Notes: generated by a model not told the origin, from the sequence alone. A stretch of 48,582 nt of DNA from Rhodospirillaceae bacterium (GCA_018666805.1 JABIXB010000115.1:1-48582), one strand, 5' to 3'; shown: positions 26,699-44,876, counted from the first letter of the stretch. Translations and numbers: made by a program.

Positions 26699-27400
26699 CT
26701 ATCGCCCCTTCTTGAGAATTTCAACGACCTCTTCCGGGCCGATATTCATCAAGGCATCGATAATCGACAGCCTGGGTTCAAACGGAAGCTTTTCCTGTGC
26801 GTATTCTGGAAATTCGATGGACATATATTCAATCGCCACGCCCATATCCGAAAATTTATCGGCATCGAGATGGCGTTGGGAACCCGTTCCCTGCCCCGTC
26901 AGATAAATGGTCGCTCGTGTTTTTTCCAGAATTTCAAAGATGCTCTCGGCCCCTTGCGCCACCAAGTCCATCTCACTGGCCCTGAGAAATGTGCGCCCGT
27001 TCAAGCCAAGAATAGAATTGATTTCCTTGACGAGAGCGCAATTGAGATCGGCGATGTTGGTGTGGTCGCTTTCCATGATTGGTGACAATCGGTCGATTAC
27101 GGCATCGCACCAGGGAGATTTCTGGTAAACGGTCCGCAAGGTCCTAAGGTGTTTTCTGTGCCAAAGTGCATCGGCGATTTTCGCCTCGGCAATGGGTTTG
27201 GTTTCACTGCTTTTCAATACGGGAACCGTCAACCATTGTGGGCCGTTAGACCCCTTGATGCGGTTGCGCGTGACAAAGCTCTTGTTCATCGGCATCTGAA
27301 CATTGTCAAAAAAGATGAAAACATCCGTGCGTAATGCCTTTTCGAAATAGCCCAGCCATGGCAGGTAATTCGGCTGGTGGATGGTGACGCGAATCGTCAA
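26699..27400 (-). CDS. WbqC family protein
   Basis: A 233-residue WbqC-like protein (PF08889). The family hallmarks are IHQPNYLPWLGYFEKALRTD at the N-terminus, FFDNVQM, NRIKG and WLTVPV. WbqC proteins occur in O-antigen and glycolipid loci and are thought to act in modified-sugar transfer or amide formation; the biochemistry is not settled. Here it overlaps the sulfotransferase stop by four bases (ATGA), so it likely works on the same glycan. Codon use is more A/T-rich than in flanking genes. Confidence 0.88.
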   Translation of the reverse strand: MTIRVTIHQPNYLPWLGYFEKALRTDVFIFFDNVQMPMNKSFVTRNRIKGSNGPQWLTVPVLKSSETKPIAEAKIADALWHRKHLRTLRTVYQKSPWCDAVIDRLSPIMESDHTNIADLNCALVKEINSILGLNGRTFLRASEMDLVAQGAESIFEILEKTRATIYLTGQGTGSQRHLDADKFSDMGVAIEYMSIEFPEYAQEKLPFEPRLSIIDALMNIGPEEVVEILKKGR

Positions 27401-28380
27401 TTCACGCTCCTTGTGTATTCCACAAGGGCAAGTTTTTCAGAAAACTTCTTCACCCAGGAATTTTCGCGATCAATGACTTCACGGGGTTTCATTTTTGGCA
27501 CTGTTTCACGGCTCCCGAAATCCTTTCCGGTCAGTGCCACCAGACGTTCGCGAATTCGCTCAAGCGTCATTAAAGGGTTGTCGACAAGATCTTCATAACT
27601 CACATACATGTGGCGAATGGAGTCACCAGCTTCGGCAATCTGATCACGGAAATACCCATTGATGCCGAGGATTTGTCCAATAATCTGATCCTCGACCGGG
27701 GCGCCGATCAACGTTTTTACATTCGGGGGAACCATACTCCACCACATGGCGGAATCTTTAAGAATTCGCTCGCGCGCCTCCAGTATGGATAGGGCTTGGG
27801 GCAAGGGGTCTCGGTCAGTGATGATAAAAACCGAATTGGGAATGTTGCGGCAGACGTCAGCCATGAAATAGGAAGGGTAGTATCCCTTGAACAGGAAGGG
27901 TTTGCTCACCTCCCTTTGCATCTCGGCAATGTGCGCACATATTCTGCCCCAATCGACGTTGCGGGATTGTGGGTCGGAAAAGAGAGAATCGGCGTTGTCC
28001 AATTTGAGCTGTTCCATCCAAAAATAATGGAAGCCGTGGATGTCGCTACCCTCGGTGCGCCCATATTGCGATGAAAAATAACTCTTCCGATCGGCGCCGA
28101 AGGTGGCCTGTGAAAGGCGCAGGCCCGTTACCGGTGCCTGCCAAAATTTAGCGGCGAGATTGTCGATGAAACCGACATCGAGAAACTGACACAAGGCCTG
28201 CGCGGTAATGGTCGTTCCGCTGCGCGGGGAACCGGTGACGAAAAGCACGGGTGCTTCGGGGAGCGCGCCTTTTTCTGGATGTTCCTCAAGTTTATTATTG
28301 ATCAAGTTCAGCCAGGACATGGCGTCTCTATCCGGCCGAAAATCGTCGTTTCGATTTTGATTGTCGCTAATTTTAATCAT
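27397..28380 (-). CDS. sulfotransferase family protein
   Basis: A 327-residue cytosolic sulfotransferase. The PAPS 5'-phosphosulfate loop is VTGSPRSGTTITAQAL (residues ~49-64), and the 3'-phosphate-binding strand-helix is probably FIITDRDPLPQALS; YEDLVDNPLMTLERI is the usual C-terminal helix motif. It would transfer sulfate from PAPS to a hydroxyl of a sugar precursor or glycolipid. It overlaps the upstream glycosyltransferase and the downstream WbqC gene by four bases each. A PAPS-supply gene (ATP sulfurylase fusion) is ~10 kb upstream in the same direction. Confidence 0.87.
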   Translation of the reverse strand: MIKISDNQNRNDDFRPDRDAMSWLNLINNKLEEHPEKGALPEAPVLFVTGSPRSGTTITAQALCQFLDVGFIDNLAAKFWQAPVTGLRLSQATFGADRKSYFSSQYGRTEGSDIHGFHYFWMEQLKLDNADSLFSDPQSRNVDWGRICAHIAEMQREVSKPFLFKGYYPSYFMADVCRNIPNSVFIITDRDPLPQALSILEARERILKDSAMWWSMVPPNVKTLIGAPVEDQIIGQILGINGYFRDQIAEAGDSIRHMYVSYEDLVDNPLMTLERIRERLVALTGKDFGSRETVPKMKPREVIDRENSWVKKFSEKLALVEYTRSVN

Positions 28381-32308: not shown

Positions 32309-33034
32309 TTATTTGCCCTTCTCATGCGTAATAACAACATTGGCGTTGAGATCGCGCGTCAATTCCTGCTGCCGCCGCTCGAGATAATCGGCCAGCCGCT
32401 CGGCCGGCGAACGATGAGCATCGATCCACCAGGCCGGATGGGTTAATAATTGCAGCGCCGTGCCGGACTTGACTGCATCGTGAGCAAGCGGCGCACCGCG
32501 CCACCAGCCGCCGCGCGAATCCGAGCAATAGCCGATGTTACTAAAATATTTCGGCTGGTAGGTATGCGGCAGCCCGGCAAGGCTTGCCGGATTGTCGATC
32601 CATTTTTGCGCCGGCCGATGAAAGCTCAGCATTGATACCGGAGCACCCGCCAACGCCGACAGATAACGCGCCTCCGAGGCGGCCCGTTCCTCCAGTGGCT
32701 CCACGCATTCGAGCGCCGCATCAAAATGGAGGCCGATTTGGTGGCCGAGCGAGACAATCCGCTGAAGGGCGTCGCGGCCAGCTTGCGTGGCCGGATTATA
32801 CTGTTCGCAGGTGACCAGCACGAAATAATGCGATGCATATCCCAGTGCGTGCTCCGCTTCAGCCAGTTCGACAGCCAGCGTGAGGCTGATATCGACATCG
32901 TGACGCAGCACTAGATGTCGCGACGCCGGGTCAACCGCATCGAAGCCGACGACTTGATATCCCTGCCCGGTTAATTCCGCCAACAAGTTCCGATAGGTGT
33001 CGAGCGAAAACTTCCTGGCGTCGTCGGCGCTCAA
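32309..33034 (-). CDS. polysaccharide deacetylase-like protein (NodB-fold)
   Basis: A 241-residue protein with a carbohydrate-esterase 4-like fold. LVLRHDVDISLTLAVELAEAE carries the HDVD motif, and HQIGLHFDAA and SFHRPAQKW supply other metal/active-site positions. It lacks a signal peptide, so it likely deacetylates a cytoplasmic nucleotide sugar or lipid-linked intermediate, or has another hydrolytic role. It overlaps the preceding, longer deacetylase gene by four bases. Substrate unknown. Confidence 0.78.
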   Translation of the reverse strand: MSADDARKFSLDTYRNLLAELTGQGYQVVGFDAVDPASRHLVLRHDVDISLTLAVELAEAEHALGYASHYFVLVTCEQYNPATQAGRDALQRIVSLGHQIGLHFDAALECVEPLEERAASEARYLSALAGAPVSMLSFHRPAQKWIDNPASLAGLPHTYQPKYFSNIGYCSDSRGGWWRGAPLAHDAVKSGTALQLLTHPAWWIDAHRSPAERLADYLERRQQELTRDLNANVVITHEKGK

Positions 33035-34350
33035 ACCGCCTCCTCGAGCAGATGCTCATAGAAGGTCCTGACAATCGGTGCGGCGACGCCGGTGTGCTGC
33101 AAAATGACAAAGCGGCCCCCATAGCGCCGGCACTCAGCAATTAATGGCCGGCACACGGCGAGTGCCTGCTCGACACTGAGGTCGCGGTATTTTCCGCCGA
33201 ACAAAGCAAATTCCATCACCGCCGTCGCGCATTGATCAACCTTCAGCGCACGTCTGCCGTAAAGGTCGAACGCCTGATAGCGCCGCGTCGAACCGGTGCG
33301 AAATCCCGACACTTCCGGAAAGGACGGCGTGTGATCGACGGCCATGCCGGCATCCGACCAGAGGCGCGGCGTCGTGTCGGCGGCGTAGCGCAGCACATGG
33401 TGGCGGCCCTCTTTGACCTGGCCGCCGATGATGCGCTCTAGGTCGGCCTTCTGGCGCTGCCATTCGTCGGCGTTGTCAAACGACATAAAGCCGGGGTGAA
33501 ATCCGACCTCATGTCCACGCCCGCGTGCGCGCTCCGCCATGCGCCGCATCAATGCCGGCCAATGGCGCGCATAGGTGCTGTCCATCGAGTTATGACTGGG
33601 CGCCATGAAATAAAAATGGCTGATCAGGCCGTGCCGCTCCGAGAGACCCATCAGCCATTCGAAACTGCGCTCGGGCTGGCCGGCGCCATAAGCTTTGAGG
33701 CGGCGCAACCCTTGCACCGGATGGCCACGCTTCAAGGCATCGCCGAGGGCGTATCTGAGCGGTTCATGAAGCCAATGATAGGCCTTTAGCCGATCGACAT
33801 CATGGGTCGGTACGACTTCATAGGTGCTGAGATGGCTTGCCGCAGCCGGGTGTAGCAGCCGGCGCGCGATATCTTCCAGCGCCCGGTCCGCCAGGGGCAC
33901 ACCATGCAGCCCGGCACGCACCGCAAATGTCTCTGCCGCCGGATAGCGGCCATAACGGTCTGGCGCCGGACATTCTCGCTCCTCAATTAGTGACAGCATG
34001 AGAAAGGCCAAACCGATGGCGTCATAGGAAAGGGCACCGCCCGAATCGCCCCGCTCCGGCGCAGGCGGCAACAATCCGCCATCCGCCGCCAGAAAATGCT
34101 CCACCGCGCCCGGCAATAAAAAAATACCATCCGCTTCCCGCACCTCGACAAAGTTTGGAAACAACACACCCGGCACGGCAACATCGGCGCCGTCATCCGC
34201 AGCGCCGTAACGCAACAGCGGCGCGTCGGTTTCTTCCGGGCCGGCCCGGCGTAACGGGTAATAGCGTTCAAGCACCGACAAAACATAATCGATTTCGGGC
34301 TGAAAAGCGGCGGCGCTTGGATCGACGCTGAGACGATAGGCGCGCGTCAT
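33031..34350 (-). CDS. two-domain polysaccharide deacetylase family protein
   Basis: A 439-residue protein. Residues 1-185 form an N-terminal domain of uncertain function (LERYYPLRRA, VPGVLFPNFVEV), and the C-terminal part is NodB-like: PTHDVDRLKAYHWLHEPLRY near residue 190, HEVGFHPGFMSFDNADEW and LRYAADTTPRLWSDAGMAVD. No signal peptide is visible. It overlaps the AsnB-like gene and the shorter deacetylase gene by four bases each, so the three are co-translated. The function on the glycan is inferred only from fold and location. Confidence 0.8.
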   Translation of the reverse strand: MTRAYRLSVDPSAAAFQPEIDYVLSVLERYYPLRRAGPEETDAPLLRYGAADDGADVAVPGVLFPNFVEVREADGIFLLPGAVEHFLAADGGLLPPAPERGDSGGALSYDAIGLAFLMLSLIEERECPAPDRYGRYPAAETFAVRAGLHGVPLADRALEDIARRLLHPAAASHLSTYEVVPTHDVDRLKAYHWLHEPLRYALGDALKRGHPVQGLRRLKAYGAGQPERSFEWLMGLSERHGLISHFYFMAPSHNSMDSTYARHWPALMRRMAERARGRGHEVGFHPGFMSFDNADEWQRQKADLERIIGGQVKEGRHHVLRYAADTTPRLWSDAGMAVDHTPSFPEVSGFRTGSTRRYQAFDLYGRRALKVDQCATAVMEFALFGGKYRDLSVEQALAVCRPLIAECRRYGGRFVILQHTGVAAPIVRTFYEHLLEEAV

Positions 34351-37207: not shown

Positions 37208-38098
37208 TCAGGCGTGCAGGCGGGCAGGGTCGTAATCTGAAAAATAGGCAATACGGCGCGTCATATCGGCTGAGAGCCGCGCCGTAAAACGCTCAAACAG
37301 GTCAATATCCTGTCGCGCCACGGCAGTCATGCCGTGGCCCTGGGAAATATTGGTGTTGGCTGGCGGGCGGGCAATGACAGGCGAGTGGGTAAGGCCCAAT
37401 TGATCAAACGCTACGTTAATACGCTCCGAATCGTGCAGATGATCGGTGCGTATTTCGACAGACCGGGTGACGTTATGTGCCTCAACGATTTGATCAAAAC
37501 GCAGATACATTTCGCACCATGCCCAGAGATAAAATTCGCCCGGCGCAAAATCGGCGCTGTCGAGGCGAAGAATATTGCTCGCCTGATCCGGCAAATTATT
37601 GTCGAGACGAAAATTCTTACCGCGATTGAGGAAACTGCGCATGTTCAAGAGCGGATCCCGCACCAAGCGAATCAACGAGAATGACGGCAAGATACGCGCG
37701 AATCCCCGATGCAGACCGCGGGCAAAATATTTGCTCACATCAATATAGATATGCGCGTTATGGCGCGCGAGGATGCGTTCGGCCAGGCGGATGCGGCGGC
37801 GGGCAATTTTCTCAAGGTAAACGTCATCGCCCTGGTCAAAAGCGCTTAGCACCCGGCCACGGCCCAACAGTTCGTGTGTTTCAACAAAGCGCCTTCTGAA
37901 TCTGCGTTCATAATTTCCGAGAAAGCCGGGTAGGCGCCGATTGATGCTCGGCTCCTCAAATGCCGGGTAACAGCCCGGAACATGCTGGCGCAGCAGATTG
38001 GTCAGAGATGCCTGGCCACTGCGCCCAGCTGTCACGGTGAAAATGAATTGCCGTTGTGGCCCATTGCCAGCCATGGCGGACGCCGTCAGCTCGCTCAC
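37208..38098 (-). CDS. sulfotransferase-like protein
   Basis: A 296-residue P-loop protein. The N-terminal loop FTVTAGRSGQASLTNLLRQH (residues ~20-39) resembles the PAPS 5'-phosphosulfate loop of sulfotransferases, with GRSG replacing the more common PRSG. LIRLVRDPLLNMRSFLNRG is a good match to the 3'-phosphate-binding segment. It overlaps the pyruvate kinase-ATP sulfurylase gene by four bases, which strongly supports a PAPS-dependent role. Arginine-rich helices and lack of a signal peptide imply a cytosolic acceptor. Confidence 0.82.
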   Translation of the reverse strand: MSELTASAMAGNGPQRQFIFTVTAGRSGQASLTNLLRQHVPGCYPAFEEPSINRRLPGFLGNYERRFRRRFVETHELLGRGRVLSAFDQGDDVYLEKIARRRIRLAERILARHNAHIYIDVSKYFARGLHRGFARILPSFSLIRLVRDPLLNMRSFLNRGKNFRLDNNLPDQASNILRLDSADFAPGEFYLWAWCEMYLRFDQIVEAHNVTRSVEIRTDHLHDSERINVAFDQLGLTHSPVIARPPANTNISQGHGMTAVARQDIDLFERFTARLSADMTRRIAYFSDYDPARLHA

Positions 38099-40260
38099 GC
38101 GCTGACGATCGGCCGGCCGGCCGCAATTTCAGCGCGCAAATAATCCTGGATAATATCGCGCATGAACCATTCCGGCAGCGGCTCATTCCGGGCGATCGCC
38201 TGGCGTGCCTTGGAGCCGCTGATCGCGGTCGGGACACGCGCCTCACTGGCCGGCACATAGGCGTCCGTGGCCGAATCATAGGCGATTTCATCGAAGAATA
38301 CTGGCGCCACGCCGATATCGCCGAGTTGCTCGAACAATGCCCGGCTCTCTTCCGGCTGATAGAAATCACCGACCCCGGTGTGATCGCGACCAACGATAAA
38401 ATGGCTACAGCCGATATTCTTGCGGCACAGTGCCGTAAACACCGCTTCGCGCGGCCCGCTATAGCGCGGGTAAGTGGCAAAGCTGCCGAGCACGACCTTG
38501 CCGGCGGGATAAAGGTGAAAATCGAGCATGATCTGATAGCTCTTTAAAATAGGGCCGGGCAGGAAATCGCCTTGCTTGCGCGGGCCGATAACGGGACTGA
38601 TATAGAGACCGTCAGCCCGGGTCCCCTCCAGCGCCGCAAGTTGGATATGCTCATGCACCCGGTGCGCAACATTGCGGGTATGAAACCCGACCACCCGGCT
38701 CCACCCTTTGCGCGTAAAGAGAAAGCGCGTCTGTGCCGGTGTCAATTCGAACTGCCGGTACTCGGATGTCAAACGCCGCACCAGGGTGACCGCACCAGCG
38801 ACAAACACATCGCCGCGCCCGGCCAAACCCGCAACGCCTGGATGATCCATCGAATCAGTGCCAAACCAGGGCTGCACAATGCGCTCGAATTCGAGCGGGA
38901 ATATTTCTGAAATATCCAGCACCGCGTAAACCACGCCGGCGGCATTTTCAAGCGCCACACGATCGCCCACACCCGCACCGCCGAGTGCTTGGCGGGAAAG
39001 TTGCAGGGTAATCGGCAATGTCCAGACGGTGCCGTCCGGCAAGCGGTGCGTGGCGAGTACCGATTCAAGCGCCGCACTATCCATAAACCCGATGAGCGGT
39101 GAAAACGTGCCGAGGGCAATCTGCTGGCAATCCATCAGGGCGAGGTCGGAGACGCGAACACGCGGCAATTGCGTATCCGCCTCCGGCGCCATGGCCAAGG
39201 CTTCGCGGTGCACCAGATTTCCGCCATGCGGCTCGACCAACAGCGATGCCGGATCGGCAACATAGTGATCCGGTGTGAGCGTGCTGCCCGCTTCGAACGA
39301 GCGGATCAGCTTGACGATCATACTGGCGCAGGCGATGGGATAGGCGCCGATCGCCGTTTCCGCCGCGAGCACCAGGCCATCGACGCCATCCAACAATGTG
39401 TTGTGCACATCATTAACTTCGGCCCGGGTTGGCGCCGGCGCAACGATCATCGATTCGAGTAGATTGGTCGCGACATAGACCTTGCGCTCAACCGCTTTGG
39501 TGCGGCGCGTAATTTGTTTTTGTAGGGCCGGTATATGCTCGACCGGAAATTCGCGGCTGAGATCTCCCCGGTCGATCAAAATGGCATCCGAGCGCGTCGC
39601 GATTTCCTCGAGATTTTCAACGCCGTTGCGGCACTCGATCTTCGAAATCACCCGCGCAGCGTCGCCGGCGTGGCGGCGAATCTCATCAACATCGCTGGGG
39701 AAATTTGCGAACGACAAAGCAACATGATCGATGCCTTTATCGCGGCCGATTTTCAGCGCTGCGATATCCTTTTCGGTGAGCGGCGGCATGGTCAATGCGC
39801 GCTCCACCGTAACCGCCTTGTTGCTGCCGATTTCGCCGCCATTGAGCACGCGCACCGCCACACCTTCCGCACCGGCCTCGATGACCTGCACTAAAACGGC
39901 ATTAAAATCGATGCTGATAAAATCGCCGATTTCGAGTTCGTCCGGAATATAGGCGGGATAGAGATTAAAGCAGCGCGCATTGCCGGGCGCTCGCGCACGG
40001 GGAATTTGAATTATCTCGTTCTCGGCGATCATTACTTTGCCATCGACAAACGCGCCGGTACGCACTTGCGCACCTTCCGTGTCGAGGCAAACCGGCACAT
40101 CGGTATGGCTGCGAATGGTATCGATGACGTCGCTCACATCAGCCAGCGCCGTGTGCGACAAATTGATGCGAAAGAGTGTCGCGCCCAATTCAGCGAGGCG
40201 CCCAATAACATGCCCATTCATCGATGCCGGGCCGAGCGTACAAAAAATATCTTTGCTCAC
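38095..40260 (-). CDS. fused pyruvate kinase core - ATP sulfurylase
   Basis: A 721-residue fusion. Residues 1-325 match the pyruvate kinase A and B domains: CTLGPAS start, R31/N33/S35 in FRINLSH, D60/T61 in LDTEGAQVRTG, K207/E209 in ISKIEC, D233 in RGDL, T265 in ATNLLES and PTRAEVNDV. All catalytic positions I can place are kept, but the C-terminal allosteric domain is absent. From ~340 to the end it is ATP sulfurylase: PHGG (344), TRNVAHRVHEH (528-538), PREAVF, GRDHTGVGDF (624-633) and SGSKAR. The Sat HxGH-like motif reads FHTRNVAH, differing from the usual QTRNPxH. GTG 40260 is chosen, 11 bases after AAAGGG; a longer frame reaches 40305. Sat makes APS from sulfate and ATP; PK could regenerate ATP from ADP. 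No APS kinase domain is present. Confidence 0.93.
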   Translation of the reverse strand: MSKDIFCTLGPASMNGHVIGRLAELGATLFRINLSHTALADVSDVIDTIRSHTDVPVCLDTEGAQVRTGAFVDGKVMIAENEIIQIPRARAPGNARCFNLYPAYIPDELEIGDFISIDFNAVLVQVIEAGAEGVAVRVLNGGEIGSNKAVTVERALTMPPLTEKDIAALKIGRDKGIDHVALSFANFPSDVDEIRRHAGDAARVISKIECRNGVENLEEIATRSDAILIDRGDLSREFPVEHIPALQKQITRRTKAVERKVYVATNLLESMIVAPAPTRAEVNDVHNTLLDGVDGLVLAAETAIGAYPIACASMIVKLIRSFEAGSTLTPDHYVADPASLLVEPHGGNLVHREALAMAPEADTQLPRVRVSDLALMDCQQIALGTFSPLIGFMDSAALESVLATHRLPDGTVWTLPITLQLSRQALGGAGVGDRVALENAAGVVYAVLDISEIFPLEFERIVQPWFGTDSMDHPGVAGLAGRGDVFVAGAVTLVRRLTSEYRQFELTPAQTRFLFTRKGWSRVVGFHTRNVAHRVHEHIQLAALEGTRADGLYISPVIGPRKQGDFLPGPILKSYQIMLDFHLYPAGKVVLGSFATYPRYSGPREAVFTALCRKNIGCSHFIVGRDHTGVGDFYQPEESRALFEQLGDIGVAPVFFDEIAYDSATDAYVPASEARVPTAISGSKARQAIARNEPLPEWFMRDIIQDYLRAEIAAGRPIVSA

Positions 40261-40276
40261 AGTGTCGAAAACCCTT

Positions 40277-41353
40277 TCATGACTGTTCTGGGTGCTCGCC
40301 AGCAACGTCGTCCCAGCTGATCGCGGTGCCGCGCGCGAGATCGCGGGCGGCGCGTCGGCCGAGAAGCGCCGGCAGATACTTCGGCGCGAGACCGTGGCCC
40401 GGGCGAATTGAGCGTAAGTTTTCCACGCTTAACAATTCGCCCGCCTTGATGTTTTGCACTACATATAATGAGCGGCGAAAATTTAAATTTTCAGCCTCGG
40501 ACGGTGTGCGGCTGAATTCGGGCGAGCCGATCGCGCGCCAGGCGATGCCACAGGCTTCCGCCATATCGGCAAATTCATTCGGTTCGAGCGAGAACCCGGC
40601 ATCGGGGCCGCCATCGGCGCGGCGCAGGGCAACATGCTTCTCCACGATGGCGGCACCGCGTGCCACCGCCGAGATAGCCACTGCGGTGCCCAGGGTATGG
40701 TCCGAGAGGCCCACCACCGCATCGAAGCGCGCCGCCAATTGTTCCATCACCGCGAGATTTGCCTCGTCAGGCGGTGTCGGATAGCCGCTCGTGCAATGCA
40801 GCAGGGCAAGCTCGCTGCAGCCCGCACCGCGCGCCGCATCAACCGCTTCGCTGATCTCTTCCGCCGTCGCCAAGCCAGTCGACATGAGGAGCGGCTTACC
40901 GGTCTGTGCCATGCATTCGATCAGCGGCAGATCGATAAGTTCGAACGACGCCACCTTGTAGGCCGGCGCGCCCAGCTGCTGCAAAAGCGCCACCGCCGTC
41001 GGATCGAACGGGCTGGAGAATATCGTCAGGCCAATTTGCCGCGCTTTTTCAAATAACGCCGCATGCCATTCCCACGGCGTGTGCGCCTCCTGATACAAAT
41101 CATAAAGCGTGCGGCCGGCCCAAGGCCCGCCCTCAATGCGAAAATCAGGGCCGTCATGATCGATGGTAATTGTGGCCGCCGTGTAGGTTTGAATTTTGAC
41201 GGCATCCGCACCGGCCCGGCTTACCGCCTCCATCAGATCGAAGGCGCGTTCGATATCGCCTAGATGATTACCGGATAATTCGGCGATGACATAGGGCGGC
41301 TCACCCGCGCCGATGCGCCGCCCGGCAATGGAAAATTTATTCGCCGTATTCAC
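40277..41353 (-). CDS. pseI: pseudaminic acid synthase (PseI, NeuB family)
   Basis: PseI condenses a 2,4-diacetamido-trideoxy hexose with PEP to form the nonulosonic acid. PYVIAELSGNHLGDIERAF and the RTLYDLYQEAHTPWEWHAAL segment are PseI signatures and distinguish it from sialic or legionaminic synthases; a C-terminal SAF/antifreeze-like domain is present (RSLYVVQNIKAGE, RPGHGLAPKYL). GTG 41353 overlaps the upstream stop as GTGA and gives 358 aa. Substitutions such as GNHLGD for the usual GNHNQ make the exact stereochemistry of the product uncertain. Confidence 0.92.
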   Translation of the reverse strand: MNTANKFSIAGRRIGAGEPPYVIAELSGNHLGDIERAFDLMEAVSRAGADAVKIQTYTAATITIDHDGPDFRIEGGPWAGRTLYDLYQEAHTPWEWHAALFEKARQIGLTIFSSPFDPTAVALLQQLGAPAYKVASFELIDLPLIECMAQTGKPLLMSTGLATAEEISEAVDAARGAGCSELALLHCTSGYPTPPDEANLAVMEQLAARFDAVVGLSDHTLGTAVAISAVARGAAIVEKHVALRRADGGPDAGFSLEPNEFADMAEACGIAWRAIGSPEFSRTPSEAENLNFRRSLYVVQNIKAGELLSVENLRSIRPGHGLAPKYLPALLGRRAARDLARGTAISWDDVAGEHPEQS

Positions 41354-42819
41354 GATAAACCGCGCTGACGAAGCCAACCGCTTTGCTCCGCTTCGCTATA
41401 TCCGGCGCGCTCGAACAAGGATCGGCTGGCAATATTATCGCTCGCGACATGGGCCAATAGATCAGCCTCCGGCACCAACTGATGCAGCAATGTGAGAGTG
41501 ATACCGCCGATGCCGAGGCGAAAGTACGCCGGGTCAACAGCGATCGAAACTTCGTAGCCCTCGGGCAGGCGATCAAGCCGCGCCACCCCGGCGGGGGTTT
41601 CGCCGAGCAGGATCAGATTCATAAAACAGCCGGGGTCATAGAGTTTGCCACGCATCCAGCATGTGTGCTCGGCCTGGCTCGGAATATTTCGATTGCGGGC
41701 AAAACGGCGCGTTTCCGGCTTGCGCTGCAATTCAAGCAAGAGGTCGCTATCCTCCGCGGTCACTGGGCGCAAGCGAACCGCCTGCCCATCGCGCGCGCAC
41801 GGCAATTCGCCAACCGCCTGGCTCACCCGAATCGCACCGATGCCGTCGGCCAAGCGCGACGCCGCGCGGGACATGCGCTCAAGCGCGGCGCTATCGCCGG
41901 CCAGTGCATTGATAGCTTCGACCAGTGCATTTGTTTCCGGCTTGACGATTCGCGCCGCACCGGCAGCCGCTAAGGCCTCGGCGTTGGCTCGCTGATTGTC
42001 GGCAATTACCAGCAAAAGCGTCGGCAGACCAAGAGTGCAGCGCTCCCAACTGCTCATCCCGCCGGCGCCCACCGCAATGTCCGCATCGGCCATTAGTTCG
42101 GCCATATTGTCGACATCGACATGGACCCGTCCGCCGGCGCGCTCGGCCCGCGCCGCGAGACGCTCGCCATCGGGCGTATTCCAGGCCAGTACGAGATCGG
42201 GAGCAAGGCGCAGCGATGCCTGTTCAATGGCATCAAGCACCTTGTCCAATACACCCTTCGGGTTCGTTGCGCCGAGCCCCAGCAAAACGCGTTTGGCAGC
42301 ACCGTCATAATTTCGCGGCAGCAAGCGCTGGCGGGTGGCGGCAAAACCGGGCATCAGCAACGCGTAAGCCGGGCCAAGCAGACACAGGGCGTTATCAGGT
42401 ACACACCCGCGATAGTCATCAGCGCTGCCGCCCGGCGCCATGTCCAATAGAAAGTCACAGTCATGCGCGCGTTCGGCAAGATCATCGATGGCCAGGATTG
42501 TGTCGGCCCAGCCCCGGCAGGACGATGCGTAGCCGGCATCGCGCTCATAATGATCGAGTACGAACAAGCGGCAACCGGCGCGCCAATGCGCGCGCATTTG
42601 AGTGACTTCATCTTGATCGGTCGCCAGAACCACAACCTCATCGAAACGTTCGGCGAGACGCGCCGTCATCGCGGCATTATCCGATGCCGTTGCCCAGGCA
42701 CAGCGCCAACCCACATTGTTAAGGGCAGTGGCGAGGGCCGAACAGCGCATGACATGGCCCCAGCCGATGGTTGAGCCCGCATCGGCACGGAAAACGGCAA
42801 GCGGCGCGTCGGCGTTCAT
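41350..42819 (-). CDS. pseG: PseG-type UDP-sugar hydrolase fused to a GNAT acetyltransferase (PseH-like)
   Basis: A 489-residue fusion. Residues 1-335 are PseG-like GT-B fold: FRADAGSTIGWGHVMRCSAL with catalytic His22, and AVGAGGMSSWERCTLGLPTL for UDP binding. Residues ~345-489 are a GNAT domain (VRLRPVTAEDSDLL, VSIAVDPAYFRLGIGGITL, SLFERAGY), likely the PseH activity that N-acylates the 4-amino sugar. One polypeptide would thus do the last two steps before PseI. It overlaps pseI and the SpsF fusion by four bases each. Confidence 0.9.
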   Translation of the reverse strand: MNADAPLAVFRADAGSTIGWGHVMRCSALATALNNVGWRCAWATASDNAAMTARLAERFDEVVVLATDQDEVTQMRAHWRAGCRLFVLDHYERDAGYASSCRGWADTILAIDDLAERAHDCDFLLDMAPGGSADDYRGCVPDNALCLLGPAYALLMPGFAATRQRLLPRNYDGAAKRVLLGLGATNPKGVLDKVLDAIEQASLRLAPDLVLAWNTPDGERLAARAERAGGRVHVDVDNMAELMADADIAVGAGGMSSWERCTLGLPTLLLVIADNQRANAEALAAAGAARIVKPETNALVEAINALAGDSAALERMSRAASRLADGIGAIRVSQAVGELPCARDGQAVRLRPVTAEDSDLLLELQRKPETRRFARNRNIPSQAEHTCWMRGKLYDPGCFMNLILLGETPAGVARLDRLPEGYEVSIAVDPAYFRLGIGGITLTLLHQLVPEADLLAHVASDNIASRSLFERAGYSEAEQSGWLRQRGLS

Positions 42820-44876
42820 CGGACGGCGAACACCGGAACGAGCGGTGGCGTTTTCATTTGCGTTTCGAAATCGCCGCTATCGAGCGCTGCGCGGATTATC
42901 GCGAACGCACCGTCATAGGCGGCTGCCGCGTGGGCCATGTCTTCTTCCGTGTGAGCATAGGAAATATTATGGCTGCCGAGCGAAAGCACACCGCGCGCCG
43001 CCATTTCATAAATCAGCATAGTCTTGATCGCTTGCCCGCTGGCGGCGGGGCCGTCATGCGTTGTCACCAGCATCCATGGCGCAAAGCCTTGCAGGCTGAT
43101 CTGATCTTCGAGATTGTGTGCGGAAATCAGCCCGCGTACGGCTTCGGCCAGTTGTTCGCCGCTACGCCACAGGGTTTCGATCACCGGCTCGCGCCGCATC
43201 TTATCGATTGTGGCGATCGAAGCGGCGAGCGAGAGCGCCTCACCGCCGAAAGTGGACGAAAAGAATATTTCCTCCATCTCCGCCATGATATCGGCGCGGC
43301 CAACAACAGCCGATATCGGCATACCGTTGGCCATGCCCTTGCCGAAAGTCGCCAGGTCGGGGGTCACGCCAAAGAGCGTTTGCGCGCCGCCAAGAGCAAA
43401 GCGGAAACCGGTGATCATCTCGTCAATAATCAGCAAAGCGCCATGCTTATGAAGAAGCTCGCGCAGCGCCGCCAGATAACCCGGCGCCGGCGCGACAATA
43501 TTTGCCGGCTCCATGATCAGGGCGGAGATCTCACCCGGATGTTCTTTTAACAGGCCGGCAACGGCATCAAGATCGTTATAGGGCACGGTATGGGTTAAAG
43601 CGCGCACCGCATCGGGCACGCCTTTGTGGCGTGTGGTCGCACCGATATACCAGTCCTGCCAACCGTGATAGCCACACGAAATGATGCGCTCACGTCCGGT
43701 AAAGGCGCGCGCCAGGCGCACCGCCGCCGATGTTGCATCCGAACCATTTTTGCCGAAACGCACCTTCTCAGCGCAGGGAATACATTCAACCAAGCGCTCC
43801 GCCAATTGCCGCTCGAGGCGAGTGGCGAGCGAAAAACTGATTCCTTCGGCAAGCTGCGCCGCAATTGCCGCGTCCACGTCCGGGTCGCGGTAGCCGAGCG
43901 ATACGCTGAGCAGGCCATTGACGAGATCGACATATTCATTGCCATCGACATCCCACGACCGCCCACCATCGCCATGAGTTAAGAAAAGCGGCGCGGCGCC
44001 GACCGGAAATTGCACCCGGCTCTTGCTGAACGTTTGAGCACCAAGCGGAATTGTTTTCTCAGCCGCGGCAAGCTCCTCGGCCGAAGCATCATAAGACCGT
44101 TGCTCCGGCACCTTTGCGCCGGCGATGCGCTCGTTGCGGAGGGAAATCCACGAACCCTCATTGTGCGACTTGCCTCGGTTGATCTGGCGCAGCTCGGGAT
44201 ATTGCTCCAGCACGCGCAATATCTCGACAAAGCCGGGTGGTCGATCCGTTGGTAAATGTGCCGCCACGGCGCGAAGAAATTGCAGATCTTGCGGCGTGTC
44301 GAGCGCCCAATTTTCGCGCTGAAGCCCGGCGAAGGGGCAAGGCAACCCGCGCACCGAAAAGCGTCGCCGATTATGACGCAGATAAGGCGTGACATGCTCG
44401 CGCTCAAATGGCCGCGAAGCCGCTTCCGCCGCGGCCAGCAGCGCATCGGCCGAGAACACTTCGCAATCGAGCCCATCGGCCCACACCGTCGGGTCGACAT
44501 TGCTCGCATAATCGGCGCCGCTACTTTCGAACAACCACAGCACCTGGCCACAGACGGCAGGGTCGAGAAAAGGTGTGTCTGCGGTGAGGCGCATCACGAT
44601 GCGCGCATCAAGCTGGCGGATTGCGTCTGCGTAGCGGGCCAGTACATCCTGCTCGGAACCGCGTACACAGGCAACACCGGCGCCGGCGCACCATTCGGCG
44701 AGTTGATCATCGCCGGCCGCATCGCTGGTCGCAATCGCGACCTCCTCGATGCCGGGCACCGCCCGCGCCGCGCATACCACCCACTCAAGCGCCGGACGGC
44801 CGCCAAGGTCTTGCAATACCTTACCAGGTAATCTACTCGAGCCCATGCGGGCCTGAATGATGGCAACATTTGTCAC
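42816..44876 (-). CDS. SpsF-like cytidylyltransferase fused to class III aminotransferase
   Basis: A 686-residue fusion. Residues 1-245 are a PseF/SpsF-type nucleotidyltransferase: IIQARMGSSRLPGKVLQDLGG, MRLTADTPFLDP and ENWALDTPQDL, expected to activate a nonulosonic acid with CTP. Residues ~265-686 are a fold-type I class III (glutamate-1-semialdehyde-aminomutase-like) aminotransferase: FGKNGSDATSAAVRLAR, CGYHGWQDWY, LIIDEMITGFR and PLP-lysine K513 in ATFGKGMANGMP. The aminotransferase may add the amino group to a keto-nonulosonate or a related precursor. It is coupled to the PseG fusion by a four-base overlap. Confidence 0.9.
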   Translation of the reverse strand: MTNVAIIQARMGSSRLPGKVLQDLGGRPALEWVVCAARAVPGIEEVAIATSDAAGDDQLAEWCAGAGVACVRGSEQDVLARYADAIRQLDARIVMRLTADTPFLDPAVCGQVLWLFESSGADYASNVDPTVWADGLDCEVFSADALLAAAEAASRPFEREHVTPYLRHNRRRFSVRGLPCPFAGLQRENWALDTPQDLQFLRAVAAHLPTDRPPGFVEILRVLEQYPELRQINRGKSHNEGSWISLRNERIAGAKVPEQRSYDASAEELAAAEKTIPLGAQTFSKSRVQFPVGAAPLFLTHGDGGRSWDVDGNEYVDLVNGLLSVSLGYRDPDVDAAIAAQLAEGISFSLATRLERQLAERLVECIPCAEKVRFGKNGSDATSAAVRLARAFTGRERIISCGYHGWQDWYIGATTRHKGVPDAVRALTHTVPYNDLDAVAGLLKEHPGEISALIMEPANIVAPAPGYLAALRELLHKHGALLIIDEMITGFRFALGGAQTLFGVTPDLATFGKGMANGMPISAVVGRADIMAEMEEIFFSSTFGGEALSLAASIATIDKMRREPVIETLWRSGEQLAEAVRGLISAHNLEDQISLQGFAPWMLVTTHDGPAASGQAIKTMLIYEMAARGVLSLGSHNISYAHTEEDMAHAAAAYDGAFAIIRAALDSGDFETQMKTPPLVPVFAVR

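Follow-up and report, generated by a model that had tools for sequence, protein, structure and literature searches.

The window analyzed here is a stretch of 48,582 nucleotides from a Rhodospirillaceae bacterium (GCA_018666805.1, JABIXB010000115.1:1-48582), in which a single minus-strand gene encodes pyruvate kinase (PK) domains fused to an ATP sulfurylase (ATPS). Comparative genomic analysis suggests that this fusion is probably a phosphoenolpyruvate (PEP)-fuelled sulfate-activation enzyme, feeding sulfation that depends on 3′-phosphoadenosine 5′-phosphosulfate (PAPS). The evidence comprises a continuous fused frame, predicted folds for both halves, an intact set of PK residues together with a largely intact ATPS site, and linkage of the fusion to genes for adenosine 5′-phosphosulfate (APS) kinase and sulfotransferases. 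From the conserved residues and the genomic context, we infer that both halves are active, that ADP is the phosphoryl acceptor of the PK half, that the two activities are coupled, and that a glycan is the sulfated product.

Domain architecture and predicted fold

The entire PK-PUA_2-ATPS chain is encoded by one open frame (Table 1), giving a protein of 721 residues from the GTG codon at 40260 or of 736 residues from an alternative TTG at 40305 (frame 38095-40305); the GTG is the likelier start because AAAGGG stands upstream of it. Residues are numbered here for the 736-residue form (minus 15 for the 721-residue form). Three Pfam families were matched well above their cut-offs, namely PF00224 (238.2 bits against a cut-off of 30), PF14306 (PUA_2, 124.1 bits), and PF01747 (ATP-sulfurylase, 195.5 bits). 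The fusion scored below the equivalog model for full-length PK (TIGR01064, 265.5 against 306.4 bits), with a match that stops at profile position 335 of 476, and below the sopT equivalog-domain model (TIGR00339, 279.8 against 322.95 bits). No model for the whole fusion turned up in the NCBIfam scan, and no match to the APS kinase domain (PF01583) was found in the chain with Pfam.

An AlphaFold2 model, built from a 55-sequence alignment, had a mean predicted local distance difference test score (pLDDT) of 89.8 and a predicted template modeling score of 0.85, with a weak linker at residues 346-350. In a fold search, predicted residues 355-736 aligned to the ATPS structure 8a8g (Z 49.3, root mean square deviation 1.6, 372 residues aligned), and residues ~12-345 aligned to the A and B domains of the PK structure 5ws9 (Z 34.4, root mean square deviation 2.7, 325 residues). 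The PK C-terminal domain is absent. The frame, the Pfam domains, and the model thus bear out an initial annotation of this DNA, in which one frame was described as joining PK A/B domains to ATPS without the allosteric C-terminal domain of PK; structure prediction, proposed there as a check, recovered both a PK and an ATPS fold. The PK residues placed in that annotation (R46, N48, S50, D75, T76, R82, K222, E224, D248, and T280) and its ATPS motifs PHGG, TRN..H..H, PREA, and GRDH were all located, with the qualification that it had overlooked the His before TRN (H542), which stands in place of a sulfate-binding Gln.

Distribution of the fusion

A scan of GTDB genomes identified 80 homologous loci, 64 of them full length, at 42-65% identity. 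They are spread over the Pseudomonadota, Myxococcota, Omnitrophota, Planctomycetota, Verrucomicrobiota, Chloroflexota, Actinomycetota, KSB1, Elusimicrobiota, Bdellovibrionota, Bacteroidota, and Marinimicrobia. Carriers of the full-length fusion include Mesorhizobium amorphae, Methyloversatilis universalis, and Ensifer sp. BR816; several carriers are isolates or complete genomes, and a tblastn search against plasmids found two full-length homologs (~55% identity) in Ensifer and Sinorhizobium. Phage origin was rejected, with no full-length match among phage records. Among 385 sampled genomes of Alphaproteobacteria, a full-length fusion was present in three (two of the genus of the window) and a short relative in one (~1%). 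A same-genus copy, 64% identical, lies amid glycan genes at a contig end. The fusion is rare yet widespread and patchy, a distribution that fits the expectation for a mobile accessory function.

The source genome is a draft of 317 contigs, so that joining of two genes by an assembly or frame error, a pitfall already raised in the initial annotation, has to be considered. However, the identical architecture recurs in the 64 independent full-length loci, including complete genomes, as well as within the same genus, which practically excludes such an artefact.

Genomic context links the fusion to sulfation

Neighboring genes were identified for 58 dereplicated fusion loci using phmmer with Pfam-confirmed seeds against all six-frame stretches within 3 kb (E-value thresholds of 1e-5 for sulfotransferases and 1e-6 for APS kinase). 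An APS kinase gene was found at 24 loci, a sulfotransferase gene at 25, both at 5, and either at 44, nearly always on the same strand as the fusion and often less than 100 bases away. The window was counted through its own divergent sulfotransferase, without which the last figure becomes 43/57. By a rough estimate, assuming one cysC per 4 Mb, chance would place one within 3 kb of ~0.2% of genes. The sulfotransferase half of this statistic is weaker because these genes are commoner in glycan islands; the adjacent sulfotransferases fall into several unrelated groups, confirmed by Pfam (PF13469, PF00685, and NKWYS-like). The association also takes the form of natural gene fusions: a 549-residue PK-APS kinase protein with the same PK subfamily in Omnitrophota (locus L078), and a 1069-residue sulfotransferase-PK-PUA_2-ATPS protein in KSB1 (locus L070).

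An APS kinase was present in 48 of the 49 fusion host genomes searched. Presence alone is weak evidence, because 11 of 14 ordinary control genomes also have this enzyme, whereas adjacency is strong evidence. The same genome count disfavors the notion that the PK half is a stand-in for a missing APS kinase. The genomic context ties the fusion to PAPS-dependent sulfation. Being widespread but patchy, the fusion can also serve to mark bacterial gene clusters for sulfation in lineages whose sulfated glycans have hardly been studied. The search of architectures and neighborhoods suggested in the initial annotation found the fusion to recur, mostly beside APS kinase or sulfotransferase genes, while the link drawn there to the pseudaminic acid synthase PseI proved not to be general, as NeuB-type synthases occur in only 9 of the clustered loci.

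Other genes also recur in these neighborhoods. A Na/H-exchanger-type transporter (PF00999) is encoded beside the fusion or its cysC at L005:14815-16071 and at 16 other loci from many lineages. In a conserved rhizobial cluster (L004, L005, and relatives), the PK-ATPS and cysC genes are surrounded by those for a P-loop protein, a Tat-signal beta-helix protein, a PqqD/kinase-like protein, and an NTP_transf_5 protein.

Conservation of catalytic residues

Residues were compared across 56 aligned fusions, 13 short PK-only relatives, three glycolytic PKs (one from the host genome and two from others), and five ordinary stand-alone ATPS proteins (Sats). R46, N48, S50, H51, D75, R82, K163, K222, E224, and T280 of the PK half are invariant in all fusions and short relatives, and D248 is kept in 55/56 and 13/13, respectively. 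The protein encoded in the window has the full set of PK residues for PEP, metal, and phosphoryl transfer (R46, N48, S50, D75, R82, K222, E224, D248, and T280). In a phylogenetic tree, the fusion PKs and short relatives form one clade (support of 100), separated by a long branch from the three sampled housekeeping PKs. Compared to the latter, the subfamily has the fixed motifs DTEGAQ(V/I)R, DRGDLSR, and ATNL; the wider glycolytic PK consensus reads D(T/L)(K/Q)GP(E/K)xR, ARGDLGV, and ATQM. Since the host genome carries a separate ordinary pyk, the fusion PK is not the housekeeping enzyme. In the ATPS half, R544, N545, H548, H551, GPREA, and GRDH are retained in most fusions.

Proposed mechanism and alternative explanations

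The energetics of sulfate activation are poor, and APS kinase suffers inhibition by the products that it forms. In the proposed mechanism, the PUA_2 and ATPS half would convert ATP and sulfate to APS and pyrophosphate (PPi), after which APS kinase (CysC encoded by an adjoining gene in many relatives, and most likely CysNC encoded elsewhere in the host) would use a further ATP to convert APS to PAPS and ADP. The PK half would convert this ADP and PEP to ATP and pyruvate, thereby sparing ATP and lifting the dead-end APS kinase-ADP-APS complex, and the PAPS would pass to local sulfotransferases acting on a cell-surface glycan or other target. The net reaction would be sulfate + ATP + PEP → PAPS + PPi + pyruvate. 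In vitro, human PAPSS1 made little PAPS until PK and PEP removed the ADP, a benefit attributed to relief of the dead-end complex (PMC9885120). The initial annotation had likewise proposed that tethered, PEP-driven ATP regeneration serves sulfate activation for glycan sulfation, and this proposal gains strong, independent comparative genomic support from the neighboring genes, the natural fusions, and the APS kinases of the host genomes. Its further suggestion, that PK pulls the ATPS step directly, does not hold, because ATPS releases PPi, which is not a substrate of PK, whereas it is APS kinase that supplies the ADP.

Several observations weigh against this mechanism. No APS kinase gene was found within the window, and 14 of the 58 fusion loci have neither partner within 3 kb, although a contig end truncates 4 of these loci. 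The Gln of the QxRN motif, which is present in 5/5 ordinary Sats compared, is replaced by His in 50/56 fusions; in A. vinosum ATPS, Gln199 and Arg201 bind the sulfate of APS (PMC3779200). In 8/56 fusions (L020, L035, L043, L046, L047, L053 from Thauera, L062, and L066), several ATPS motifs are degenerate. Finally, invariant changes lie beside the PK active site (E77, A79, Q80, D245, S250, and N281) and could alter the acceptor or the cation needs of this half.

Alternatively, the PK-like domain could itself be a PEP-dependent APS kinase, transferring the phosphate of PEP to the 3′-hydroxyl of APS, such that the fusion alone would be a PAPS synthase with no need for CysC. In agreement with this possibility, residues specific to the subfamily are invariant at the PEP/nucleotide site, PK is N-terminal to ATPS, as is APS kinase in animal PAPS synthases, and at 20 fusions a sulfotransferase gene is close by while an APS kinase gene is not. 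However, an APS kinase adjoins 24 of the 58 loci, is joined in L078 to a PK of this very subfamily, and is encoded in all but one of the searched host genomes, and the PK half retains H51, R82, K163, and K222, as in ordinary PK, making a PEP-dependent APS kinase quite unlikely.

All eight fusions with a degenerate ATPS have intact PK residues; PK therefore appears to be the part most strictly kept by selection, and may be the essential part. The degenerate state needs at least six changes on the PK tree, many branches of which are weakly supported; provided that this tree is correct, ATPS degenerated repeatedly. Simple decay in a genome lacking any further source of the activity was rejected as an explanation, as a second ATPS, either Sat or CysN, is encoded in seven of these eight genomes; in the eighth (L066), a genome whose completeness is not established, neither Sat or CysN nor APS kinase was found. 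Catalytically inactive partners in sulfate activation have precedents in the APS kinase-like domain of P. chrysogenum and in the inactive ATPS-like domains that persist as structural parts in E. histolytica and T. denitrificans (PMC13213808). By analogy with these dead partners, and given the missing C-terminal domain, the PK half could act mainly as a PEP sensor or scaffold, regulating ATPS or assembling a PAPS-sulfotransferase complex with little catalytic flux. Such a role is considered rather unlikely: the catalytic residues of PK are invariant, decay in some lineages affects ATPS instead, and a pure sensor would not require every member to keep the Lys for phosphoryl transfer and the Thr that donates the proton.

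Short PK-only relatives and SAR11 operons

An APS kinase or sulfotransferase gene is located within 3 kb of 11 of the 17 short PK-only relatives. Those of two Thermoplasmata archaea and a bacterium (L074, L075, and L077) have neither gene within this distance. In three SAR11 loci (L085:9079-10969, L082:9157-12749, and L086:9983-11727), genes for APS kinase, a nucleotidyltransferase of 117-129 residues resembling nicotinamide mononucleotide (NMN) adenylyltransferase (NMNAT), and a short PK are arranged head-to-tail. The nucleotidyltransferase (117 residues in L085) has the motifs GRFQPFHDGHK...ISATNIRKK and is fused to a P-loop kinase in L086; the L082 series continues with a sulfotransferase, followed by TauE/SafE. 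Neither Sat nor CysN was found in these three SAR11 genomes, and the NMNAT-like protein, occupying the ATPS slot of the operon, is a candidate unrecognized ATP sulfurylase. Homology to ATPS was not supported (hhalign probability of 1.9), the nearest proteins being NMN adenylyltransferases.

These relatives bear on a broader possibility, namely that the PK-like domain is a new sulfate-activation phosphotransferase, distinct from glycolytic PK, whose substrate is either a nucleotide bound to APS kinase or ATPS or, with PEP as the donor, APS itself, and that it forms a conserved core to which ATPS is a replaceable part. Replaceability is suggested by the degenerate ATPS of at least several lineages, its absence from the short relatives, and the NMNAT-like protein in its slot in SAR11. 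Overall, this possibility is given a low probability.

Relation to known systems

The fusion resembles animal PAPS synthases (PAPSS1/2) and bacterial bifunctional sat-cysC proteins in that one chain combines ATPS with a second enzyme of PAPS supply, and its ATPS part was aligned to human PAPSS in the fold search. In those proteins, however, the partner is APS kinase, whereas here it is PK, with APS kinase encoded separately. Chains that combine ATPS with APS kinase are known (PMC13213808), and trifunctional ATPS-APS kinase-pyrophosphatase fusions have been described from stramenopiles (Bradley et al. 2009, as cited in PMC13213808). The latter also combine sulfate activation with an auxiliary enzyme to drive or sustain the reaction, but their auxiliary enzyme clears PPi, while the one found here would recycle ADP with PEP. 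Another parallel is bench regeneration of PAPS with PK and PEP, which also recycles the ADP of APS kinase and relieves inhibition; there, separate commercial PK/lactate dehydrogenase was combined with human PAPSS1 (PMC9885120), whereas here PK is fused to ATPS. With glycolytic PK (PF00224, TIGR01064), the PK half shares the A/B domains, fold, and catalytic residues, but differs in its lack of the C-terminal domain, its own motifs, and its separate clade. Similarly, the ATPS half shares the PUA_2 and catalytic domains and the RN..H..H, GPREA, and GRDH motifs with stand-alone Sat (8a8d, 1v47), from which it differs in the His at the sulfate site of most fusions and in its eight degenerate members.

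No published description of a PK-ATPS fusion was found in full-text literature searches, a scope outside which most subscription papers and preprints lie, and this absence is no proof; domain databases, too, may contain the architecture unremarked. If the proposed mechanism is correct, joining ATPS to an enzyme that regenerates ATP would be a new solution to the poor energetics of sulfate activation, beside the known fusions to APS kinase or pyrophosphatase, and a natural version of the PK/PEP recycling employed by chemists in vitro. As a possible ready-made catalyst, the fusion may also be of use for PAPS production, and it opens a direct test of whether tethered, PEP-driven ADP removal raises PAPS flux.

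Other sulfate-activating genes of the host

The clear APS kinase of the host is the C-terminal part of a CysNC encoded on another contig. A separate dissimilatory-type sat is located on another contig of the same genome (L002, G000:C229), immediately preceding a gene of membrane redox type, which hints at oxidation or respiration of sulfur compounds by the host. As the host has separate pyk, sat, and CysNC genes, the fusion is therefore an extra, dedicated, third sulfate-activating set. A sulfur-oxidizing host would leave room for ATPS of the fusion to run in reverse, as in sulfur oxidizers (APS + PPi → ATP), such that both halves would make ATP. This is very unlikely, since the separate sat already fills that role and organisms with widely differing lifestyles carry the fusion together with sulfotransferases and APS kinases.

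Gene neighborhood in the window

Downstream, the bases GTGA combine the stop codon of the fusion with the start of the following gene, an overlap that suggests translational coupling of the two. The initial annotation had called the product of that gene sulfotransferase-like, which applies only in the sense of a divergent member: its family profile matches true sulfotransferases (hhalign 76.8%, E 2e-5), and 3 of 13 family members match PF13469, but the protein has no Pfam match of its own (PF13469 and PF00685 included). A PDB sequence search with it gave no matches, and its single-sequence AlphaFold2 model had a pLDDT of 32. Of the sampled genomes, 13 others carry relatives of this protein, and the scan for the fusion found it in none of them, so the tie between the two genes is local. 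A clear sulfotransferase is encoded in the same island (Table 1).

Table 1. Features of the window, with coordinates counted from its first nucleotide
Feature	Coordinates	Strand	Basis
PK-PUA_2-ATPS fusion gene, 721 aa	38095..40260	minus	open frame, Pfam domains, AlphaFold2
PK barrel (A) and lid (B) domains, residues 19-325	39331..40251	minus	PF00224
PHGG motif, start of ATPS part	39220..39231	minus	
PUA_2 domain, N-terminal part of ATPS, residues 358-510	38776..39234	minus	PF14306
ATPS catalytic domain, residues 518-724	38134..38754	minus	PF01747; 8a8g match over 355-736
HTRNVAHRVH, QxRNxxHxxH motif with Gln to His at sulfate site	38653..38682	minus	
GRDH motif (ribose/GRD loop)	38380..38391	minus	
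GTGA overlap of fusion stop codon and next start codon	38095..38098	minus	
Divergent sulfotransferase-type protein, 296 aa, GRSGQ P-loop, LVRDP..NMRSF	37208..38098	minus	family profile
Sulfotransferase of the same island	27397..28380	minus	PF13469, 43.7 bits, cut-off 27
pseI, pseudaminic acid synthase, directly upstream of fusion	40277..41377	minus	TIGR03586, 465.7 bits, cut-off 340
PseG fused to GNAT acetyltransferase, 489 aa	41350-42819		TIGR03590 above cut-off
PseF-type cytidylyltransferase fused to class-III aminotransferase, 686 aa	42816-44876		PF02348

On its other side, the fusion is flanked by pseI, as initially annotated. Together with the two genes beyond it, the first of which apparently encodes PseG and PseH in one chain, it forms a nonulosonic-acid (pseudaminic-type) island. 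The aminotransferase part of the protein encoded at 42816-44876 is related to glutamate-1-semialdehyde aminomutase. Elsewhere in the window, a DUF7033 protein (33031-34350) matches the VimE sugar deacetylase model below its cut-off (83 against 440 bits).

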